Below the pieces are notes generated by a model. It saw only the letters and a list, made by a program, of their open reading frames with translations. It ran no database searches and was not told where the DNA came from. 64,000 bases of DNA. Origin: Phycisphaerae bacterium (GTDB taxonomy: Bacteria; Planctomycetota; Phycisphaerae; UBA1845; Fen-1342). Shown here piece by piece: positions 14,039 to 61,455 of this stretch; positions within the stretch are counted from its first letter, which is position 1; each line of letters starts with the position of its first letter. The stretch is from the NCBI GenBank assembly GCA_022072445.1, contig JAJVHV010000023.1:1-64000 (forward strand), given 5' to 3'. The position numbers and the translations under genes were made by a program.

Positions 14039-14067
14039 AGTCTAACGTAGGATTTCTAGATTGTCAA
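14039..14067 (-). promoter_or_regulatory. possible promoter for the 11905-13758 gene
   Basis: Minus-strand TTGACA (perfect -35, 14062-14067), 17-nt spacer and TAGACT (-10, 14039-14044, four of six matches). The leader would be long, about 275 nt, which lowers confidence. Confidence 0.35.
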
Positions 14068-14147
14068 GTCCGGCGGCCGGGATTTTCCGCAAGTGGCGGG
14101 CGGGTGGGAAGTTATGGCGAGTGGCGGCGGATTTGGCCGTCAGGCGC

Positions 14148-14211
14148 AAGCATGCTTTCCGCTCGCGGAAGCATGGCGACCCGCTGCGCGTGGCGCCATG
14201 CCACCCATGCC
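14148..14211. repeat. dispersed repeat family B, copy 1
   Basis: Contains AAGCATGCTT, a TCGCGGA segment and GGCGACCCGCTGCGCGTG followed by CGCCATGCCACCCA. The same two blocks, in reversed order, occur at 39380-39442. Internal palindromes GCATGC and GGCGCC are present. Non-coding. Confidence 0.6.
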
Positions 14212-14294
14212 ACGCACAGTCAGCTCTTGCCGGCGAACCGCGGCCGGCCTACGCTGCGGCTGAGAGGCCCGGGGGACCTTGGCGGGAGACATCG

Positions 14295-15587
14295 ATGAGC
14301 CAGTCGATCCCGGCGCGCTCGAGGCACGGGAGTGATCACCATGCTGCGCGAGAGAGGCGCGGCCTGCTCCAACGGCGTCTTGTACCGTTTGTGATCGTCT
14401 TGGCTTCCAGTTGCACTGGCTTTGCTCAAGCGCGCAGCGCGCCGCCCAAGATCGACCGCCGACCGCCGCCCGCGGATTACACCAGGATGTACGGCAAGCC
14501 GACCACGCTGCCCAGCTTCGACGCCCGCTCGAACGATCCGTTTCAGATGGATCTGCGCTCGACCGATCTGTCCGGCCTCGACCTGCGTCAGGCCGGAAAG
14601 GACCTGTTGCTCGCCACGTTCGACACGCGGACGCGTTGGCCGGCGGCCGGGCGCCTGCCGGCGGATTTTGACGCCGCCCGGATCACGGAGCTGGGCAAGA
14701 ATCCCGGACTCGGACTGCGGAGTCTACACGCACGCGGCGTCACCGGCCGTGGGGTGGCCATCGCGATCGTGGATCAGCCGTTGATCGTCGACCACGAGGA
14801 ATTCGGCGCCCGCATCCGGCTCTACGAGGAGATCAACATCACGTCGGACACGCCGGCGCAGATGCACGGACCGGCGGTGGCATCCATCGCCGCGGGCAAG
14901 ACGGTGGGCGTTGCGCCTGGGGCGGACATCTACTACATCGCGGCTTTCGTCTTCGACACGAAAGCCAAGCCGCGGTCCGACACGCGCGATTTCCGCTGGT
15001 ACGCGCAGGCGATTCGCCGCATTCTCGAAGTCAACCAGCAACTGCCGCCCGGCGGCCGGATTCGCGCCATCTCGTTGAGTGCCGGCTGGAACGCGTCGGA
15101 GGCTGGCTACGACGAAATGCAACAGGCCGTGCTGGCGGCGAAGGACGCGGGGCTGCTCATCACGTCATCAAACTTCGAGCGGATTCATGGGCGGCCCATC
15201 AACGGTCTGGGCCGCGCGCCGCTGGCCGATCCTGACCGCTTCGATTCGTACACGCCCGGGATGTTCTGGGCGAAGAACCCGGACAATCCCGCGCTGCCGC
15301 ACGATGCGCTGTTGATTCCGATGGATTCGCGCTCCACCGCCGCCCCTAACGGCAGGCAGGACTACGCCTTCTACCGCCAAGGGGGCTGGAGCTGGATCAC
15401 GCCCTATCTCGCGGGCGTCTATGCGCTGGCGGCACAAGTGAAGCCCGAGATCACGCCCGACGAGTTCCTGATGCTGGCGTTCAAGACCGGCCGACCGTTG
15501 GACTGGCCGACCCAGACCGGCCGCGTGGTGCTCGGCGTCATCATTGACCCGCCCGTCCTGATCGAGGCCCTGCGGGCAGGGCCGTAG
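14295..15587 (+). CDS. secreted subtilisin-like (S8) serine protease
   Basis: 430 residues with a signal peptide (RRLVPFVIVLASSCTGFAQA). A proregion to about residue 140 precedes the catalytic domain. The predicted triad is Asp160 in GVAIAIVDQP, His191 in MHGPAVASIAAG and Ser366 in GWSWITPYLAG, which aligns with the family's GTSMATPHVAG. The oxyanion Asn is probably in ITSSNF. The Ser motif is unusual: Trp-Ser-Trp-Ile replaces Thr-Ser-Met-Ala. The ATG at 14295 has GGGAG 7-8 nt upstream and starts the signal peptide. Probably acts outside the cytoplasm; substrate unknown. Confidence 0.85.
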   Translation: MSQSIPARSRHGSDHHAARERRGLLQRRLVPFVIVLASSCTGFAQARSAPPKIDRRPPPADYTRMYGKPTTLPSFDARSNDPFQMDLRSTDLSGLDLRQAGKDLLLATFDTRTRWPAAGRLPADFDAARITELGKNPGLGLRSLHARGVTGRGVAIAIVDQPLIVDHEEFGARIRLYEEINITSDTPAQMHGPAVASIAAGKTVGVAPGADIYYIAAFVFDTKAKPRSDTRDFRWYAQAIRRILEVNQQLPPGGRIRAISLSAGWNASEAGYDEMQQAVLAAKDAGLLITSSNFERIHGRPINGLGRAPLADPDRFDSYTPGMFWAKNPDNPALPHDALLIPMDSRSTAAPNGRQDYAFYRQGGWSWITPYLAGVYALAAQVKPEITPDEFLMLAFKTGRPLDWPTQTGRVVLGVIIDPPVLIEALRAGP

Positions 15588-15903: not shown

Positions 15904-17808
15904 ATGCGTGTTTCAAACCGGATTGCAAACGTCCTGTCGGTGTGCGCCGCCTTCACGATCGTCGCCGCGCGCGACGCAAACGCCCAGGAGGGCTCCATTC
16001 GCGCCTGGGGCTTGCAAGTCGTCGTGCCGCAGTCCGACCTGAACCTCGTGGGCGTCGCCGCGGGCCAGTACCACAGCCTCGGATTGAAACCCGACGGCTC
16101 GATCGTGGCGTGGGGGCGGAACGACAACCACCAATGCGAAGTGCCGGAGTCCAAGATCAGCTTCGTGGCGGTCGCCGCGGGCCGAGTTCACAACGTGGGG
16201 CTGAAGTCCGACGGCTCGATCGTGGCCTGGGGAGATTGCAGCGTTTTTGGCCAATGCGACGTGCCTGAGCCTAATAGCGAGTTCGTGGCCGTCGCCGCCG
16301 GCGCGTATTACAGTCTGGGCCTGAAAGCCGACGGCTCGATCGTCGCCTGGGGGTACAACGACTTCGGCCAGTGCGACGTGCCGTCGCCCAACACGGGCTT
16401 CGTGGCGGTCGCCGCGGGCGAGTATCACAGCCTCGGGCTCAAGGCTGACGGCTCAATTGTGGCGTGGGGACACAACGTCTACGGCCAATGCAACGTGCCC
16501 GAGCCCAACACCGACTTCGTGGCCGTCGCCGCGGGTGATTTTCACAGCCTGGGCTTGAAGTCCGACGGCTCGATCGTGGCGTGGACTGCGAACGGCGCGG
16601 GGCAATGCGACGTCCCTGAGCCCAACAGCGGATTCGTGTCCGTCGCGGGGGGCTACGAACACAGCCTGGGCGTGAAATCCGACGGCTCGATCGTGGCGTG
16701 GGGAGACAACAGCGCTGGGCAATGCAACGTGCCTGCGCCCAACAGCGGCTTCGTGGCCGTCGCCGGGGGCCGATATCACAGCCTGGCGGTGAAGTTCGAC
16801 GGCGAGTCGGTGGCGTGGGGGAACAACATTTATTCCCAATGCAACGTGCCCGCCCCAAACAACGGTTTCGTGGCCGTCGCCGGGGGCTTGAATCACAGCC
16901 TGGGTCTGAAACCCAATGGCTCGATCGTGGCGTGGGGGTACAATGGCGTTGGCGCATGCAACGTGCCAGCGCCCAACAGCGGCTTCGTGGCCGTCGCCGC
17001 GGGTGAGCACTTCAGCCTGGGGTTGAAAGACACCGGCTCGATTATGGCCTGGGGATTGAACGAGTACGGCCAGTGCGACGTGCCGGTGCGCAATAACGGC
17101 TTCGTGGCGGTCGCGGCGGGCCGATTTCACGCCCTGGGAGCGAAGTCCGACGGTTCGATTGTAGCGTGGGGATACAACGACTTCGGCCAGTGCGACGTGC
17201 CCGAGCCCAACAGCGGCTTTGTGGCTGTCGCCGGAGGCTGGTATCACAGCCTGGGGGTGAAGTCCGATGGCTCAATCGTGGCGTGGGGCGACAACGGCAA
17301 GGGGCAATGCGACGTGCCCACGCCCAACAGCGGCTTCGTGGCCGCCGCCGGCGGCCGAGAGCACAGCCTGGGTGTGAAATCAGACGGCTCGGTCGTGGCC
17401 TGGGGCTGGAACGCTTACGGACAATGCGACGTGCCTGCGCCCAACGCCGGCTTCGTCGCCGTAGCGGCCGGCAATACACACAGCCTGGGTCTGAAGTCCG
17501 ACGGCTCGATTGTGGCTTGGGGATACAGCGGGTACGGCCAGTGCAACGTGCCGGCGACCCATCACAGGTTCGTGGCGGTCGCGGCGGGCAAGCATCACAG
17601 TCTGGGAGTCGAAGCCCTGCCGCCGTGCCAGCCCAGCGACGTCAACTGCGACGGAAGCGTCAACGGCTTCGACATCGACCCCTTCGTCGAGCTCCTCACC
17701 GGCGGCGGAACGCCGTGCTCACCGTGCGCCGGCGACGTTAACGCGGACGGCAGCGTGAACAGCTTCGACATCGATGGGCTCGTAATCGCCTTGACCGGCG
17801 GAGGATGA
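15904..17808 (+). CDS. secreted RCC1-repeat protein with dockerin-like C-terminus
   Basis: 634 residues. A signal peptide ending near DANAQ precedes 14 tandem repeats of about 39 residues with the consensus GSIVAWGxNxxGQCxVPxPN then GFVAVAAGxxHSLGLKSD, predicting two seven-bladed RCC1 beta-propellers or a longer solenoid. From about residue 570 follow two Ca-binding loops of dockerin type, DVNCDGSVNGFDID and DVNADGSVNSFDID, separated by a Cys-rich CSPCAGD linker. The ATG at 15904 has GAGGAG nine nt upstream. Likely extracellular, binding or surface display. Repeat units are nearly identical at DNA level, suggesting recent tandem duplication. Confidence 0.9.
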   Translation: MRVSNRIANVLSVCAAFTIVAARDANAQEGSIRAWGLQVVVPQSDLNLVGVAAGQYHSLGLKPDGSIVAWGRNDNHQCEVPESKISFVAVAAGRVHNVGLKSDGSIVAWGDCSVFGQCDVPEPNSEFVAVAAGAYYSLGLKADGSIVAWGYNDFGQCDVPSPNTGFVAVAAGEYHSLGLKADGSIVAWGHNVYGQCNVPEPNTDFVAVAAGDFHSLGLKSDGSIVAWTANGAGQCDVPEPNSGFVSVAGGYEHSLGVKSDGSIVAWGDNSAGQCNVPAPNSGFVAVAGGRYHSLAVKFDGESVAWGNNIYSQCNVPAPNNGFVAVAGGLNHSLGLKPNGSIVAWGYNGVGACNVPAPNSGFVAVAAGEHFSLGLKDTGSIMAWGLNEYGQCDVPVRNNGFVAVAAGRFHALGAKSDGSIVAWGYNDFGQCDVPEPNSGFVAVAGGWYHSLGVKSDGSIVAWGDNGKGQCDVPTPNSGFVAAAGGREHSLGVKSDGSVVAWGWNAYGQCDVPAPNAGFVAVAAGNTHSLGLKSDGSIVAWGYSGYGQCNVPATHHRFVAVAAGKHHSLGVEALPPCQPSDVNCDGSVNGFDIDPFVELLTGGGTPCSPCAGDVNADGSVNSFDIDGLVIALTGGG

Positions 17809-17880: not shown

Positions 17881-19305
17881 ATGTTCGACGCTCTCAGCCA
17901 GAAACTCAGCGACGTCTTCCGCAGCGTGCGCGGGCGCGGGCGGATTACCGAATCAAATGTCCGCGACGCGATGCGCGACATCCGCACGGCATTGCTCGAA
18001 GCCGACGTGAACGTGCAGGTGGCCCGCACGTTCTGCGACCAGTGCCTCGAGAAAGCGCTCGGGCAGAAGGTGATCGAGACGCTGCGGCCCGAGCAGGTGC
18101 TCGTCAAGGTCGTCTTCGACGAGCTGGTCGGCTTCATGGGCCCGATCGAGACGCGCATCCCCTTCGTCAGCCAGCCGCCGACCATCATCCTGATGGCGGG
18201 CTTGCAGGGCTCGGGCAAGACGACCACGTGCGCCAAGCTGGCGCGCTATTGCATGCTGCGCGGCAAGAAGCCGCTGCTGGTGGCCGCCGACCTGAAGCGT
18301 CCGGCGGCCGTCGATCAGCTCGAAGTGCTCGGACAGCAGCTCAGCATTCCCGTCTTCGCGGAGCGCGACCATCAGAACCCCGTCCGCGTCTGCAAGGCGG
18401 CGGTGCGCGATTGCCGCAAGCTCGATCGCGACGTGGTCATCCTCGACACGGCCGGCAGGCTGGCGATCGACGACGAGCTGATGACCGAAATCTCGCAGGT
18501 CGCGCAATCGACGCAGCCGCACCAGATTTATCTCGTCCTCGACGCCATGACCGGGCAGGACGCCGTCAGCACCGCCAAGCACTTCGACGAACGGCTCGAG
18601 CTCGACGGCGTGATCCTCACGAAGTTCGACTCGGACACGCGCGGCGGCGCGGCGCTCTCCGTCAAGCACGTCACCGGCAAGCCGATCAAGTTCATCGGGG
18701 TGGGGGAGAAGCTCGACGCGCTGGAGGAGTTTCACCCGGAGCGCATCGCGCAGCGCATTTTGGGCATGGGCGACGTCGTCTCGCTGGTGGAAAAAGCGCA
18801 TCAGGCCATGGACGCCGAGGCTGCCGCCAAGGCGCAGGAGAAGATGGCCAAGGGCACGCTCGGGCTCGACGACTTTCTGACGCAGCTCGAGAGCTTTCGC
18901 AAGATGGGGCCGATGAAGCAGATTCTCAAGATGATCCCCGGCATGAGCCAGGCGATGGGCGAAATGGACATGCCCGAGGAGGAGCTGAACCGCGTGAAGG
19001 GCATCATCCACAGCATGACGCCGCGCGAGCGGGCCGACCCGGACGTGATTGAGGCTTCGCGGCGGCGGCGGATCGCGCGCGGCGCGGGGGTTGAGCCGCA
19101 GGACGTGAGCGGGCTGGTGAAGCAGTTCACGCAGATGCGCGGGATGATGAAGATGATGGCGGGGATGGGCATGGGCCAGCGGCTGAAGATGACGCAGCAG
19201 CTTGCGCAGGGCGGCATGCTGGAGGGGAATATCCCGAAGGTGAAGAAGGGGTCGACGTTTTATGACCCGCGCAAGCGGGATAAGAAGAAGCGGCGACGGC
19301 GTTAG
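17881..19305 (+). CDS. ffh: signal recognition particle protein Ffh (SRP54)
   Basis: 474 residues. The N domain is followed by the GTPase G domain: P-loop GLQGSGKTTTCAKLA (about residue 108), DTAGRLAIDDELM and TKFDSDTRGGAALS. The methionine-rich M domain has ILKMIPGM and the RNA/signal-peptide-binding helices, then MRGMMKMMAGMGMG-type repeats and a Lys/Arg tail. It binds signal sequences of nascent inner-membrane proteins and docks on FtsY. The ATG at 17881 is chosen on family length and on the -10 box just ahead; an upstream frame of 12 codons is not conserved. No 4.5S RNA was recognised nearby. Confidence 0.95.
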   Translation: MFDALSQKLSDVFRSVRGRGRITESNVRDAMRDIRTALLEADVNVQVARTFCDQCLEKALGQKVIETLRPEQVLVKVVFDELVGFMGPIETRIPFVSQPPTIILMAGLQGSGKTTTCAKLARYCMLRGKKPLLVAADLKRPAAVDQLEVLGQQLSIPVFAERDHQNPVRVCKAAVRDCRKLDRDVVILDTAGRLAIDDELMTEISQVAQSTQPHQIYLVLDAMTGQDAVSTAKHFDERLELDGVILTKFDSDTRGGAALSVKHVTGKPIKFIGVGEKLDALEEFHPERIAQRILGMGDVVSLVEKAHQAMDAEAAAKAQEKMAKGTLGLDDFLTQLESFRKMGPMKQILKMIPGMSQAMGEMDMPEEELNRVKGIIHSMTPRERADPDVIEASRRRRIARGAGVEPQDVSGLVKQFTQMRGMMKMMAGMGMGQRLKMTQQLAQGGMLEGNIPKVKKGSTFYDPRKRDKKKRRRR

Positions 19306-19325
19306 GCTTCGGCGTCGCGCCGAGT

Positions 19326-19399
19326 TCGTGTATCCATGACAAAGCGCTCCCTGTCACGGCGCGCGCCGTGACAGGGAGCGCTTTGTCATGGATACACGA
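19326..19399. repeat. 74-bp perfect palindrome behind ffh
   Basis: Two 37-nt arms are exact reverse complements with no loop (centre between 19362 and 19363), and wobble pairs extend it slightly outward. A T5 run follows at 19401-19405. It starts 21 nt after the ffh stop. As a terminator it would be far longer than usual; as DNA it could form a cruciform. Confidence 0.85.
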
Positions 19400-19576
19400 G
19401 TTTTTCGCCGAACGCCGGTTCTTTTTCCAAGGGATTTCACCGCCGAAGCGGCTGTGTCCTACGAGCCGCGCGCCGGTTAGTGCCCTCGAAGCCAGACGGG
19501 GCGAGACGGCACGGCCGGTCCGCGCGTCGCGCGACGAACGGGCAACCGAAATTACATCGCCGAGAGGATCAGTCCC

Positions 19577-21652
19577 ATGTTCCGAATAACTCCGCTTCTC
19601 GCCATCCCCTTGCTCCTGCTGCTCGGCGGCTGCCCGGCAGAGGAGGCCAAAGACGTTCCGGCCCAGACGCCGGGCTGCGGCGCGCCGGGGAATCCGTGTG
19701 CGCTCATGAATGTCGCGGGCGACGTCCTGCAGCGCGGCGAGGACTTGAGCGTCGCGATGCGCACGATGCTGGAGGGCGGGGCATCGGCGGCGGATGCGCT
19801 GGCGTTCGTCGCGGGGCAGGACGGCGTGGCCGAGGCGGCGGCGAGCGAGCTGGCGGTGCGCTTCCGGCTCGCGGGCGGGCGGGATTGCTGGGTGTTGGCG
19901 CCGGAGGCGCTGGGGATCGATTTTGCGGCGCTGCCCGCGGAAAAGAGCGAGGTTGCGCTGCCCGCGGTGCAGAAGTCGGCGCAACCGCCGGCGGTGCCGA
20001 TGCCCCGCGGGCGGGTCGCGGATTCCGCGCGCGACGCATCGGGCGACGGACGGAAGACCTCCGCCGCCCGTGTCGTCGGCGACGATCCCGAGGCGAAGAG
20101 CGCGCTGATCCTCGCGCCGTTCGAATATCAGTTCCGCGTGCATGACGACGGCGCCGCGGTGGCGCGGATACTCGAAGCGACGCGCGGGTATGAAGGGCGC
20201 GTGACGTATCTGGAGAACAGCTCGAAGGACGCGAAAACGGTCGGCATCGAGCAGTTCAAAGGCTGGGACGCCTACGACGTCGTGCTCGTGACCGGACATG
20301 GGTCCAGCATGTGCGTCGACGGCTACTGCATGAACGTCATCCTCACCGGCGATACGTACACCAGCGCCGCGGAGCTGGCCGGCATCACCGATCCGGGCGT
20401 GAACACCATCCACATCGCGGGCGTGGACCGCGGCCAGCTCGCGCTGAGCCCGGATTTCTTCCGCCATCACTACGGCGCCGGACTCGAAAACACGATCATC
20501 TTCTTCAATGCCTGCAAGTCGTACGGCGCGGGGCCCAACGACGGCGGCAGCCTGAGCAACGCGCTGCTCGGACCGGGCAGCGTCTATCTGGGCTGGAGCG
20601 AGGTCGTGCACGCCGACGTGGCCTACAGCGCCTCGGTCTCGCTGTTTCAGAGCCTCGCGGACCAGGGCGTGACCGCGTGGTCGGCTTTGGATCAGCTCGG
20701 CGATCGCGCCATCGATCGCTACACGCGCAAGAATGGCGAAGCGGTGGAAGCGTGGCTGCTGCTGGATCGACCGGCGGACGGCGACCTGCGGGCGCGCGAA
20801 GTGATCACGCTCGAATATCCAGGCGGCGGCGATCTGACCTCCGACGCGCAGGTGCGGGTGATCGGCGAGGCCCTCGACGGCAAGGTGGATCGTGTGCCGT
20901 TCCAGGTGCTCGTCGAGGGCATCGAGGAGTGGGAGGCCGAGTTTGCGACCGTCGTCGCGACCGTCGAAGGGCACGACTCTGACCCCATCGCGGTCTCCTC
21001 CGGCGAGCGCGCCGGCCCGCGCGAGTATCGCGTGCGCGGCGAGATCGAGTACGTCGACGTGGCGCCCGAGCAGACGGTCGAGATGCGGGCTGAAGTGCGT
21101 TTGCCCGAGGGCGGCACGAGCGAACACACGCTGACCACCAACCTGACGGCGGAACAAGGACCGGAAACCTGGACCGGAGAAGCCACGAGCAGCCTGCAGA
21201 TCATTCTCGGCGGCGGCGGCGTGGTGAACGTGTCGGCGGTAGTGACGTTGCAACAGACGGAGCACTCCATCGGCAAGCCGACCAAGCGCTTGAAGGTCAC
21301 CGGCGGGACGATGTACTGGAGCCGCACGGGGACGGTGTCGCGCTTTCTGGACGGCGATTGCTCCTATTCCGCGGGTCCGATCGAAGTGCCCATTCAGCCC
21401 GAGGACGGCGAGATCATCATCGACACGACCACCTCGCCGCCGACGTACACCATGCACGGCTTCACCAACGGGCCGACCGTGCGCTGCGCGGAAAACTGCG
21501 GCGACTACGCGTTCAGCACGTCGGCGGACGGCGTCTGGATTCCCGCGATTACCGATTACGGCCAGTTCTTCGTGACGCCCGACGGTGCGCACATCGAGGG
21601 CAGCACGGCCGAGGATCACCGCACGTGGACCTGGTCGTTCCGGCGGCAGTGA
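19577..21652 (+). CDS. lipoprotein with caspase-like (clan CD) His/Cys signature
   Basis: 691 residues. The signal LLAIPLLLLLGGC is a lipobox, so the mature protein should be anchored by Cys. A first domain (to about 180) is Ala-rich. The second domain carries VVLVTGHGSS (His241) and, 72 residues later, IIFFNACKSYG (Cys313). Each is a buried hydrophobic strand ending in the catalytic residue, the pattern of caspases, gingipains and CHAT. GPGSVYLGWSEVV follows, like the GxxAxxGWS segment of these folds. Residues after about 420 are beta-rich, like immunoglobulin-type domains. The family assignment is my inference from motifs; activity is untested. Confidence 0.65.
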   Translation: MFRITPLLAIPLLLLLGGCPAEEAKDVPAQTPGCGAPGNPCALMNVAGDVLQRGEDLSVAMRTMLEGGASAADALAFVAGQDGVAEAAASELAVRFRLAGGRDCWVLAPEALGIDFAALPAEKSEVALPAVQKSAQPPAVPMPRGRVADSARDASGDGRKTSAARVVGDDPEAKSALILAPFEYQFRVHDDGAAVARILEATRGYEGRVTYLENSSKDAKTVGIEQFKGWDAYDVVLVTGHGSSMCVDGYCMNVILTGDTYTSAAELAGITDPGVNTIHIAGVDRGQLALSPDFFRHHYGAGLENTIIFFNACKSYGAGPNDGGSLSNALLGPGSVYLGWSEVVHADVAYSASVSLFQSLADQGVTAWSALDQLGDRAIDRYTRKNGEAVEAWLLLDRPADGDLRAREVITLEYPGGGDLTSDAQVRVIGEALDGKVDRVPFQVLVEGIEEWEAEFATVVATVEGHDSDPIAVSSGERAGPREYRVRGEIEYVDVAPEQTVEMRAEVRLPEGGTSEHTLTTNLTAEQGPETWTGEATSSLQIILGGGGVVNVSAVVTLQQTEHSIGKPTKRLKVTGGTMYWSRTGTVSRFLDGDCSYSAGPIEVPIQPEDGEIIIDTTTSPPTYTMHGFTNGPTVRCAENCGDYAFSTSADGVWIPAITDYGQFFVTPDGAHIEGSTAEDHRTWTWSFRRQ

Positions 21653-21658
21653 GAGCGC

Positions 21659-21698
21659 AGGGTGCGTCCCTTGACGTGCCTTGACGCACCACACCGTT
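21659..21698 (-). repeat. 40-bp dispersed repeat, copy 1 (hairpin)
   Basis: It begins just after the stop of the caspase-like gene. Arms GGTGCGTC and GACGCACC form a stem around a 14-nt loop. Its reverse complement matches 26871-26910 at 38 of 40 positions. It may act as a terminator here. Confidence 0.7.
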
Positions 21699-23143: not shown

Positions 23144-23663
23144 GGCTTTGGCTCCCGTTTCTCTCAAGACGGGGAATGGTATGGCGGTGAATAACGAATG
23201 ACGAATAGCGAATAACGAATTGAACGGCGACGCGTTTTCCGTTCGTCGCGCCGGCGGGACGATTTTGCCGGCGGGACGCCATTTGCCGGCGGGACGCCAT
23301 TTGCCGGCGGGACGCCATTTGCCGGCGGGACGCCATTTGCCGGCGGGACGCCGACGCTCCCCACGTTTGAAGGCGGGACGCCATTTGCCGGCGGGACGCC
23401 ATTTGCCGGCCGGACGCCATTTGCCGGCGGGACGCCGACGCTCCCCACGTTTGAAGGCGGGACGCCGTTTGCCGGCGGGACGCCATTTGCCGGCGGGACG
23501 CCATTTGCCGGCGGGACGCCGTTTGCCGGCGGGACGCCATTTGCCGGCGGGACGCCGACGCTCCCCACGTTTGAAGGCGGGACGCCATTTGCCGGCGGGA
23601 CGCAATTGCCGGCGGGACGCCGACGCTCCCCACGTTTGCCGGCGGGACGCCGACGCTCCCCGT
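23144..23663. other. 520-nt intergenic region with minisatellite
   Basis: Between the acetyltransferase stop and trpS start. It contains the GAATAACGAATGACGAATAGCG-type short repeats near 23187-23221 and the long array at 23252-23665. It would form most of the trpS 5' leader if transcribed from the acetyltransferase side. Confidence 0.7.
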
Positions 23664-46945: not shown

Positions 46946-47010
46946 GGGGAGCATCGGCCTCTGGCCGGTGTGAAATCCACGACCGCACCGGCCAGAGGCC
47001 GATGCTCCCC
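46946..47010. terminator. 25-bp perfect stem hairpin between convergent genes
   Basis: Arms 46946-46970 and 46986-47010 are perfectly complementary (GGGGAGCATCGGCC... and reverse) around a 15-nt loop. It lies between the ABC exporter stop and the opposite-strand dockerin-tailed gene. Probably a bidirectional terminator; no T-run. Confidence 0.7.
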
Positions 47011-61174: not shown

Positions 61175-61195
61175 ACTTGGATACGCCGCCGCTCG

Positions 61196-61455
61196 CACGG
61201 GTGCCCGGCACGGGTGCCCGGCCGACGGCCGTTCGCGTCGGCCGGTCTGAGCCCGAAGCACGGGTGCCCGGCACGGGTGCCCGGCCGACGGCCGTTCGCA
61301 CGGGTGCCCGGCCGACGGCCGTTCGCGTCGGCCGGTCTGAGCCCGAAGCACGGGTGCCCGGCCCGGCCGACGGCCGTTCGCGTCGGCCGGTCTGAGCCCG
61401 AAGCACGGGTGCCCGGCCGACGGCCGTTCGCGTCGGCCGGTCTGAGCCCGAAGCG
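61196..61455. repeat. module-shuffled minisatellite
   Basis: Three modules recur in varying order: CACGGGTGCCCGG (seven), GGCCGACGGCCGTTCG (five) and CGTCGGCCGGTCTGAGCCC plus GAAG (four). The second and third together form a hairpin with arms GGCCGACG / CGTCGGCC. There are no uniform unique spacers. Confidence 0.85.

Follow-up and report, generated by a model that had tools for sequence, protein, structure and literature searches.

Does a gene flanked by ffh and a NifU-like gene, in the 64,000-nucleotide stretch of Phycisphaerae DNA analysed here (the window), encode an exported, membrane-anchored cysteine peptidase related to caspases and CHAT proteins? The question was raised by the original prediction, which had noticed a lipobox and a His/Cys dyad in its product. 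It is addressed below through the features of this protein (P0001), its homologues, the conservation of its dyad, its genetic neighborhood and its predicted fold.

Features of the Predicted Lipoprotein and Its Gene

P0001 starts with MFRITPLLAIPLLLLLGGC, in which a hydrophobic signal peptide leads up to the lipobox and its Cys, as is usual for bacterial lipoproteins. The third codon positions of the gene have a GC content (GC3) of 0.87, and an antisense ORF of 855 residues (19127-21694) was discarded as the usual high-GC shadow, with all homologues favoring the + strand. The features of the locus are as follows:

19562..19568, + strand: GAGAGGA, Shine-Dalgarno-like, 8 nt 5' of the ATG (from sequence)
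19577..21652, + strand: P0001 gene, caspase/CHAT-like lipoprotein of 691 residues (ORF; frame and extent backed by homologue L007)
19577..19633, + strand: signal peptide and lipobox LLGGC, predicted lipidated Cys19 (from sequence; lipobox-like N-termini in most homologues)
19694..19900, + strand: small N-terminal alpha+beta domain, residues ~40-108, helices and then three strands (AlphaFold2 pLDDT up to 92; block conserved in family alignments)
19901..20071, + strand: low-confidence linker, residues 109-165 (pLDDT <50 across most of it)
20072..20701, + strand: caspase/haemoglobinase-like catalytic domain by prediction, residues 166-375 (AlphaFold2 of residues 166-395; Foldseek; hhalign to CHAT)
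20297..20302, + strand: His241-Gly242, two residues past the third core strand (H in 29/34 and G in 34/34 homologues; model position)
20507..20521, + strand: Asn311-Ala-Cys313-Lys-Ser315, with Cys313 as putative nucleophile two residues past the fourth core strand (C in 28/34)
20591..20596, + strand: Gly339-Trp340, end of the fifth core strand, conserved as GW/GF/GY (G in 28/34)
20729..21649, + strand: C-terminal region, beta-rich by prediction, residues 385-691 (predicted secondary structure, pLDDT <50; mostly common to L007, 32% identity)

The sequence elements named by the original prediction, namely the lipobox, VVLVTGHGSS with His241, IIFFNACKSYG with Cys313 72 residues further on, and the segment GPGSVYLGWSEV, are all exactly present in the ORF. 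By itself, the pair of His and Cys motifs is weak evidence, as it also appears in 83 of 5000 shuffles of the protein and in 7 of 487 unrelated neighborhood ORFs (a chance rate of ~1–2%; 12 further matches are family members). It is the conservation of the pair across 34 homologues that raises it above chance. With regard to the C-terminal domains, described from the start as beta-rich, this character is recovered by prediction and stays at that level, with pLDDT below 50 in the region.

A Divergent Family of Probably Exported Proteins

Used alone, P0001 matched no model in Pfam, reached chance-level scores only in NCBIfam and found nothing real among PDB sequences, and profile searches found no relative among PDB sequences either. 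A single-sequence search of genomes returned just two short matches, both within the order of P0001, and a single-sequence scan of genome contigs returned zero homologues. An alignment-based scan of the contigs yielded L013, L014 and L015, the last one from a Zixibacterium. With homologue profiles enlarged stepwise (A2, A4, A7), matches were obtained in 9 of 397 genomes of the class, and in 26 of 114 genomes of the order and 10 of 392 of the phylum, the latter two tallies being slightly too high because some of the matches are canonical CHAT proteins (L024–L026 and L047–L049, from the order and phylum searches, which fall outside the family). Repeating the order search with a better profile gave 25 of 114 genomes at E ≤ 1e-5.

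In total, more than 30 divergent homologues came out of the profile searches; most of them are planctomycetal, and one is from Zixibacteria. The genome of P0001 has one family copy. Identity across the family tree is about 15–25%. The nearest relative of P0001, L007, shares about 34–37% identity with it and is homologous to most of it, the C-terminal half included. Literature searches found no account of such a lipoprotein family. The family is real, remote and apparently unnamed, made up of exported clan CD peptidase-like lipoproteins, and represents a sequence-divergent addition to this clan that escapes the current profile libraries.

In most homologues, the N-terminus is a signal peptide resembling a lipobox, and others hold export features such as signal peptides, dockerin and PASTA domains, and planctomycete export motifs. 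Among them, L008 bears a weak planctomycete extracellular motif (Planc_extracel) and a CARDB domain, and in L091/L007 the peptidase is preceded by a dockerin as well as a PASTA domain. These lipoboxes and export motifs suggest that members of the family most likely act outside the cytoplasm.

Conservation and Loss of the Catalytic Dyad

Conservation was counted in an alignment of the catalytic domain of 34 sequences. The top-ranked columns are Gly242 (34/34), His241 (29/34), Cys313 (28/34) and Gly339 (28/34), together with one further glycine, and both dyad residues are found in 27 of the 34 sequences. The expectation that His241 and Cys313 would be conserved in homologues was therefore borne out, both being among the most conserved residues, although seven of the 34 homologues lack one or both of them, so that proteolysis cannot be a property of all members.

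In a tree computed without the two dyad columns, these losses fall into one supported clade of five sequences (L032, L033, L036, L052, and L053) and two single sequences, L038 (both residues) and L040 (His). Members of the clade keep the lipobox and the fold region, and carry a proline in place of Cys313 (APHS) together with AHGC or AQGC, the His being replaced in part of them (AQGC). Judging from their sequences, they are probably inactive paralogues. Since the losses are not random, most members of the family look catalytic, with one lineage resembling pseudo-enzymes, and this lineage offers a natural comparison for telling catalytic from structural roles. Only 64% of planctomycete metacaspases hold an intact dyad (PMC3501461), and dyad loss in the P0001 family thus fits the phylum.

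The same observations can be read as the mark of a family of largely non-catalytic caspase-fold envelope proteins, with binding or scaffold functions, in which even the dyad-bearing P0001 no longer cuts proteins. This reading draws on the seven deviating homologues, above all on the clade of five, in which the remainder of the domain is retained, and on the 64% figure for metacaspases. However, 27 of 34 very divergent sequences retain both residues at top-ranked positions, which is hard to explain without catalysis, and both P0001 and its nearest relative L007 are among those with the dyad. For these reasons, a loss of activity throughout the family is considered unlikely, and a catalytic P0001 is the preferred reading.

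Genetic Neighborhood

Among the neighborhoods of 20 homologous loci, no conserved partner, substrate gene or operon was found; Ser/Thr kinase-like ORFs recur in four of them. The upstream subtilase and RCC1/dockerin genes, as well as the neighbors ffh and NifU, were set aside because they are not shared with the homologous loci. PADLOC returned no defence matches, and nothing in the context of P0001 points to defence.

These observations bear on the proposal of an envelope-exposed protease for conflict or fratricide, that is, a cousin of CHAT defence effectors that moved outside to act on neighbors or invaders. The nearest fold of P0001, that of a SAVED-CHAT protease (see below), would agree with such a role, as would the scattered distribution and high divergence of the family, and for extracellular caspase homologues of prokaryotes an effect on neighboring cells has been suggested (PMC3501461). 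Nevertheless, there is neither a PADLOC match nor a conserved defence or immunity neighbor, and a lipid anchor would hold the protein on its producer, which makes this proposal rather improbable.

Several other elements of the window were recorded. The subtilase-like protein (14061-15587) matches PF00082 with an E-value of 7.5e-9 and has a divergent Ser box, GGWSWITPYLAG. The RCC1-repeat protein (15904-17808) holds a C-terminal dockerin type I domain and is made of 117-bp DNA repeats. A perfect palindrome of 74 bp (19326-19399), with two 37-nt arms, a spacer of 0 nt and no T run, lies in the gap that separates ffh from the P0001 gene. Exact copies of it occur nowhere else among the loci compared, and it may represent a terminator, a palindrome of biological origin or a fold-back introduced by assembly. 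At 46946-47010 there is another perfect inverted repeat, with 25-nt arms and a 15-nt gap. Two tandem arrays are also present: one flanked by trpS and a gene for a GNAT acetyltransferase (23250-23661), with ~22 copies of the 18-bp unit GCCGGCGGGACGCCATTT and an 84-bp higher-order unit that is 98% identical, and another at 61195-61454 with a 50-bp unit, GCACGGGTGCCCGGCCGACGG...

Predicted Fold of the Catalytic Domain

The AlphaFold2 model of the mature protein is confident for the N-terminal domain and the core and poor for the C-terminal half, with more than half of the residues below a pLDDT of 50. For this reason, the Foldseek search with the full-length model, which ranked flavodiiron/flavodoxin folds first and otherwise returned unrelated folds, was misleading, a problem that was solved by using the catalytic domain alone. 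Residues 166-395 were modelled with a pLDDT of 85.8 and a pTM of 0.85, in the order strand, helix, strand, helix, strand (235-239), His241, small strands (242-247, 250-261, 275-279, and 286-290), helix (292-299), strand (307-311), Cys313, helix, strand and long helix.

In clan CD, strands 3 and 4 each end in a dyad residue, and a small sheet is placed between strand 3 and helix 3 (PMC4357240). The model of P0001 shows this layout, with His241 after strand 3, Cys313 after strand 4 and the small strands before the third helix. Five core strands were modelled, the clan being expected to have a sheet of at least six strands with an antiparallel one and the order 2-1-3-4; residues after ~376 are of low confidence.

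With the isolated domain, the best PDB match in Foldseek is a SAVED-CHAT protease (8tl0, probability 0.99), followed by caspase-8, caspase-9, Arabidopsis metacaspase-9 and insect caspase-1 (probabilities of 0.92–0.96), with legumain and clostripain (9cip, probability 0.28) lower in the list. Hence, the modelled domain resembles clan CD folds, as had been anticipated. Flavodiiron proteins are interspersed in the list (rank 5), scoring nearly as well. The modest E-values (2.7e-3 and worse) and TM scores (about 0.43–0.48) indicate that the relation to solved clan CD enzymes is remote.

Independent evidence of a relation comes from profile–profile alignment. Using hhalign, the family aligned to six Pfam-verified CHAT domains with a probability of 97%, in a register that places VVLVTGHG over FVHLTCHG and IIFFNACKS over VVFANACHS, so that His and Cys are both paired. 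A flavodoxin-like or other Rossmann-type domain, in which HG and AC occur by chance, would account for the first matches of the full-length model, the flavodiiron protein at rank 5 and the 1–2% frequency of the motif pair in ORFs, but it is highly improbable given that SAVED-CHAT and caspases come first in the search with the isolated domain, the dyad is conserved and the CHAT alignment is in register. Predicted fold, CHAT profile alignment and conservation together represent strong evidence that P0001 belongs to clan CD, and for its family both fold and dyad are well supported.

Proposed Function and Significance

With the gene, its lipobox, the family, the dyad conservation and the predicted fold established, P0001 is likely a lipoprotein of the cell envelope, and its middle domain a putative clan CD (caspase/CHAT-like) cysteine peptidase. 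For lipidation, proteolysis, activation and substrate, we infer the following scheme. As its lipobox suggests, P0001 would be exported, lipidated on Cys19 and held at the membrane. The outward orientation and the surface-processing role put forward in the original prediction likewise belong to what is inferred. Judging from fold, position and conservation, Cys313 would attack the peptide bond of the substrate, and His241 would serve as the general base, in line with the other members of clan CD. The N-terminal alpha+beta domain and the long linker probably hold the enzyme inactive until they are cleaved or displaced. This inhibitory, pro-domain role is proposed because the N-terminal regions of gingipains and metacaspases act in an inhibitory or activating manner (PMC4357240 for the gingipain type, whose N-terminal prodomain is inhibitory). 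The beta-rich C-terminal half would probably be a binding module that positions the enzyme on its substrate or on the envelope.

A broader proposal, which we regard as possible although doubtful, is that planctomycetes and a Zixibacterium possess a hitherto undescribed group of exported clan CD proteases with a lipid anchor. In this view, the N-terminal domain would be a built-in inhibitor, one clade would consist of dead paralogues that are maybe regulators or decoys, and the whole would constitute an envelope proteolysis system unlike known bacterial CHAT or metacaspase proteins. Bacterial relatives of caspases are mostly viewed as effectors of defence or cell death, and an exported, membrane-anchored planctomycete family points to envelope biology. 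The cell surface of this phylum is unusual and poorly understood, and the P0001 family may bear on it.

Comparison with Known Clan CD Families

The search with C14, C25 and CHAT profiles (PF00656, PF01364, and PF12770) that had been proposed as a check gave no match to P0001, and none of the three Pfam models found it in its own genome at E ≤ 10. At other loci, this genome encodes three canonical CHAT proteins. The homologues score little better, with an E-value of 0.033 for C14 on L002 (which also has a weak CHAT score) and a best E-value of 0.04 for PF12770, P0001 staying below the gathering cut-off. Conversely, canonical CHAT proteins are among the weakest matches of the family profile.

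P0001 resembles CHAT proteins (PF12770, and SAVED-CHAT 8tl0) in its predicted fold, in the VHLTGHG and FxNACxS motifs aligned in register, and in a hydrophobic strand with a conserved Gly past the Cys. Unlike them, it has no PF12770 match, it is predicted to be exported and lipid-anchored, and it holds a predicted N-terminal alpha+beta domain and a beta-rich C-terminus; its His and Cys are 72 residues apart, with additional strands.

With prokaryotic metacaspases and caspases (C14), P0001 shares fold and dyad, but it lacks a PF00656 match and has Asn at C-2, the position two residues before the Cys. Some prokaryotic members of C14 are predicted to be extracellular, and those of planctomycetes are frequently without the dyad (PMC3501461).

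Gingipains (C25) are exported and surface-associated, and P0001 is like them in its predicted export and in being of the clan CD type. They hold beta-rich domains C-terminal to the catalytic domain. However, P0001 does not match PF01364 and has a lipobox anchor instead of gingipain-type secretion, and no gingipain appears among the best 50 Foldseek matches of its catalytic domain.

Finally, the clostripain-type peptidases (C11) are secreted bacterial clan CD enzymes and are represented in the Foldseek list by 9cip, although with the weak score given above. In C11 peptidases, an Asp at C-2 is the S1 residue that binds a basic P1 (PMC4850288). P0001 has Asn311 at this S1-pocket position, and a C11-like preference for basic P1 residues is thus not predicted for it, whereas L002, L003, L034 and L041 have Asp there, suggesting that specificity may differ between members of the family.
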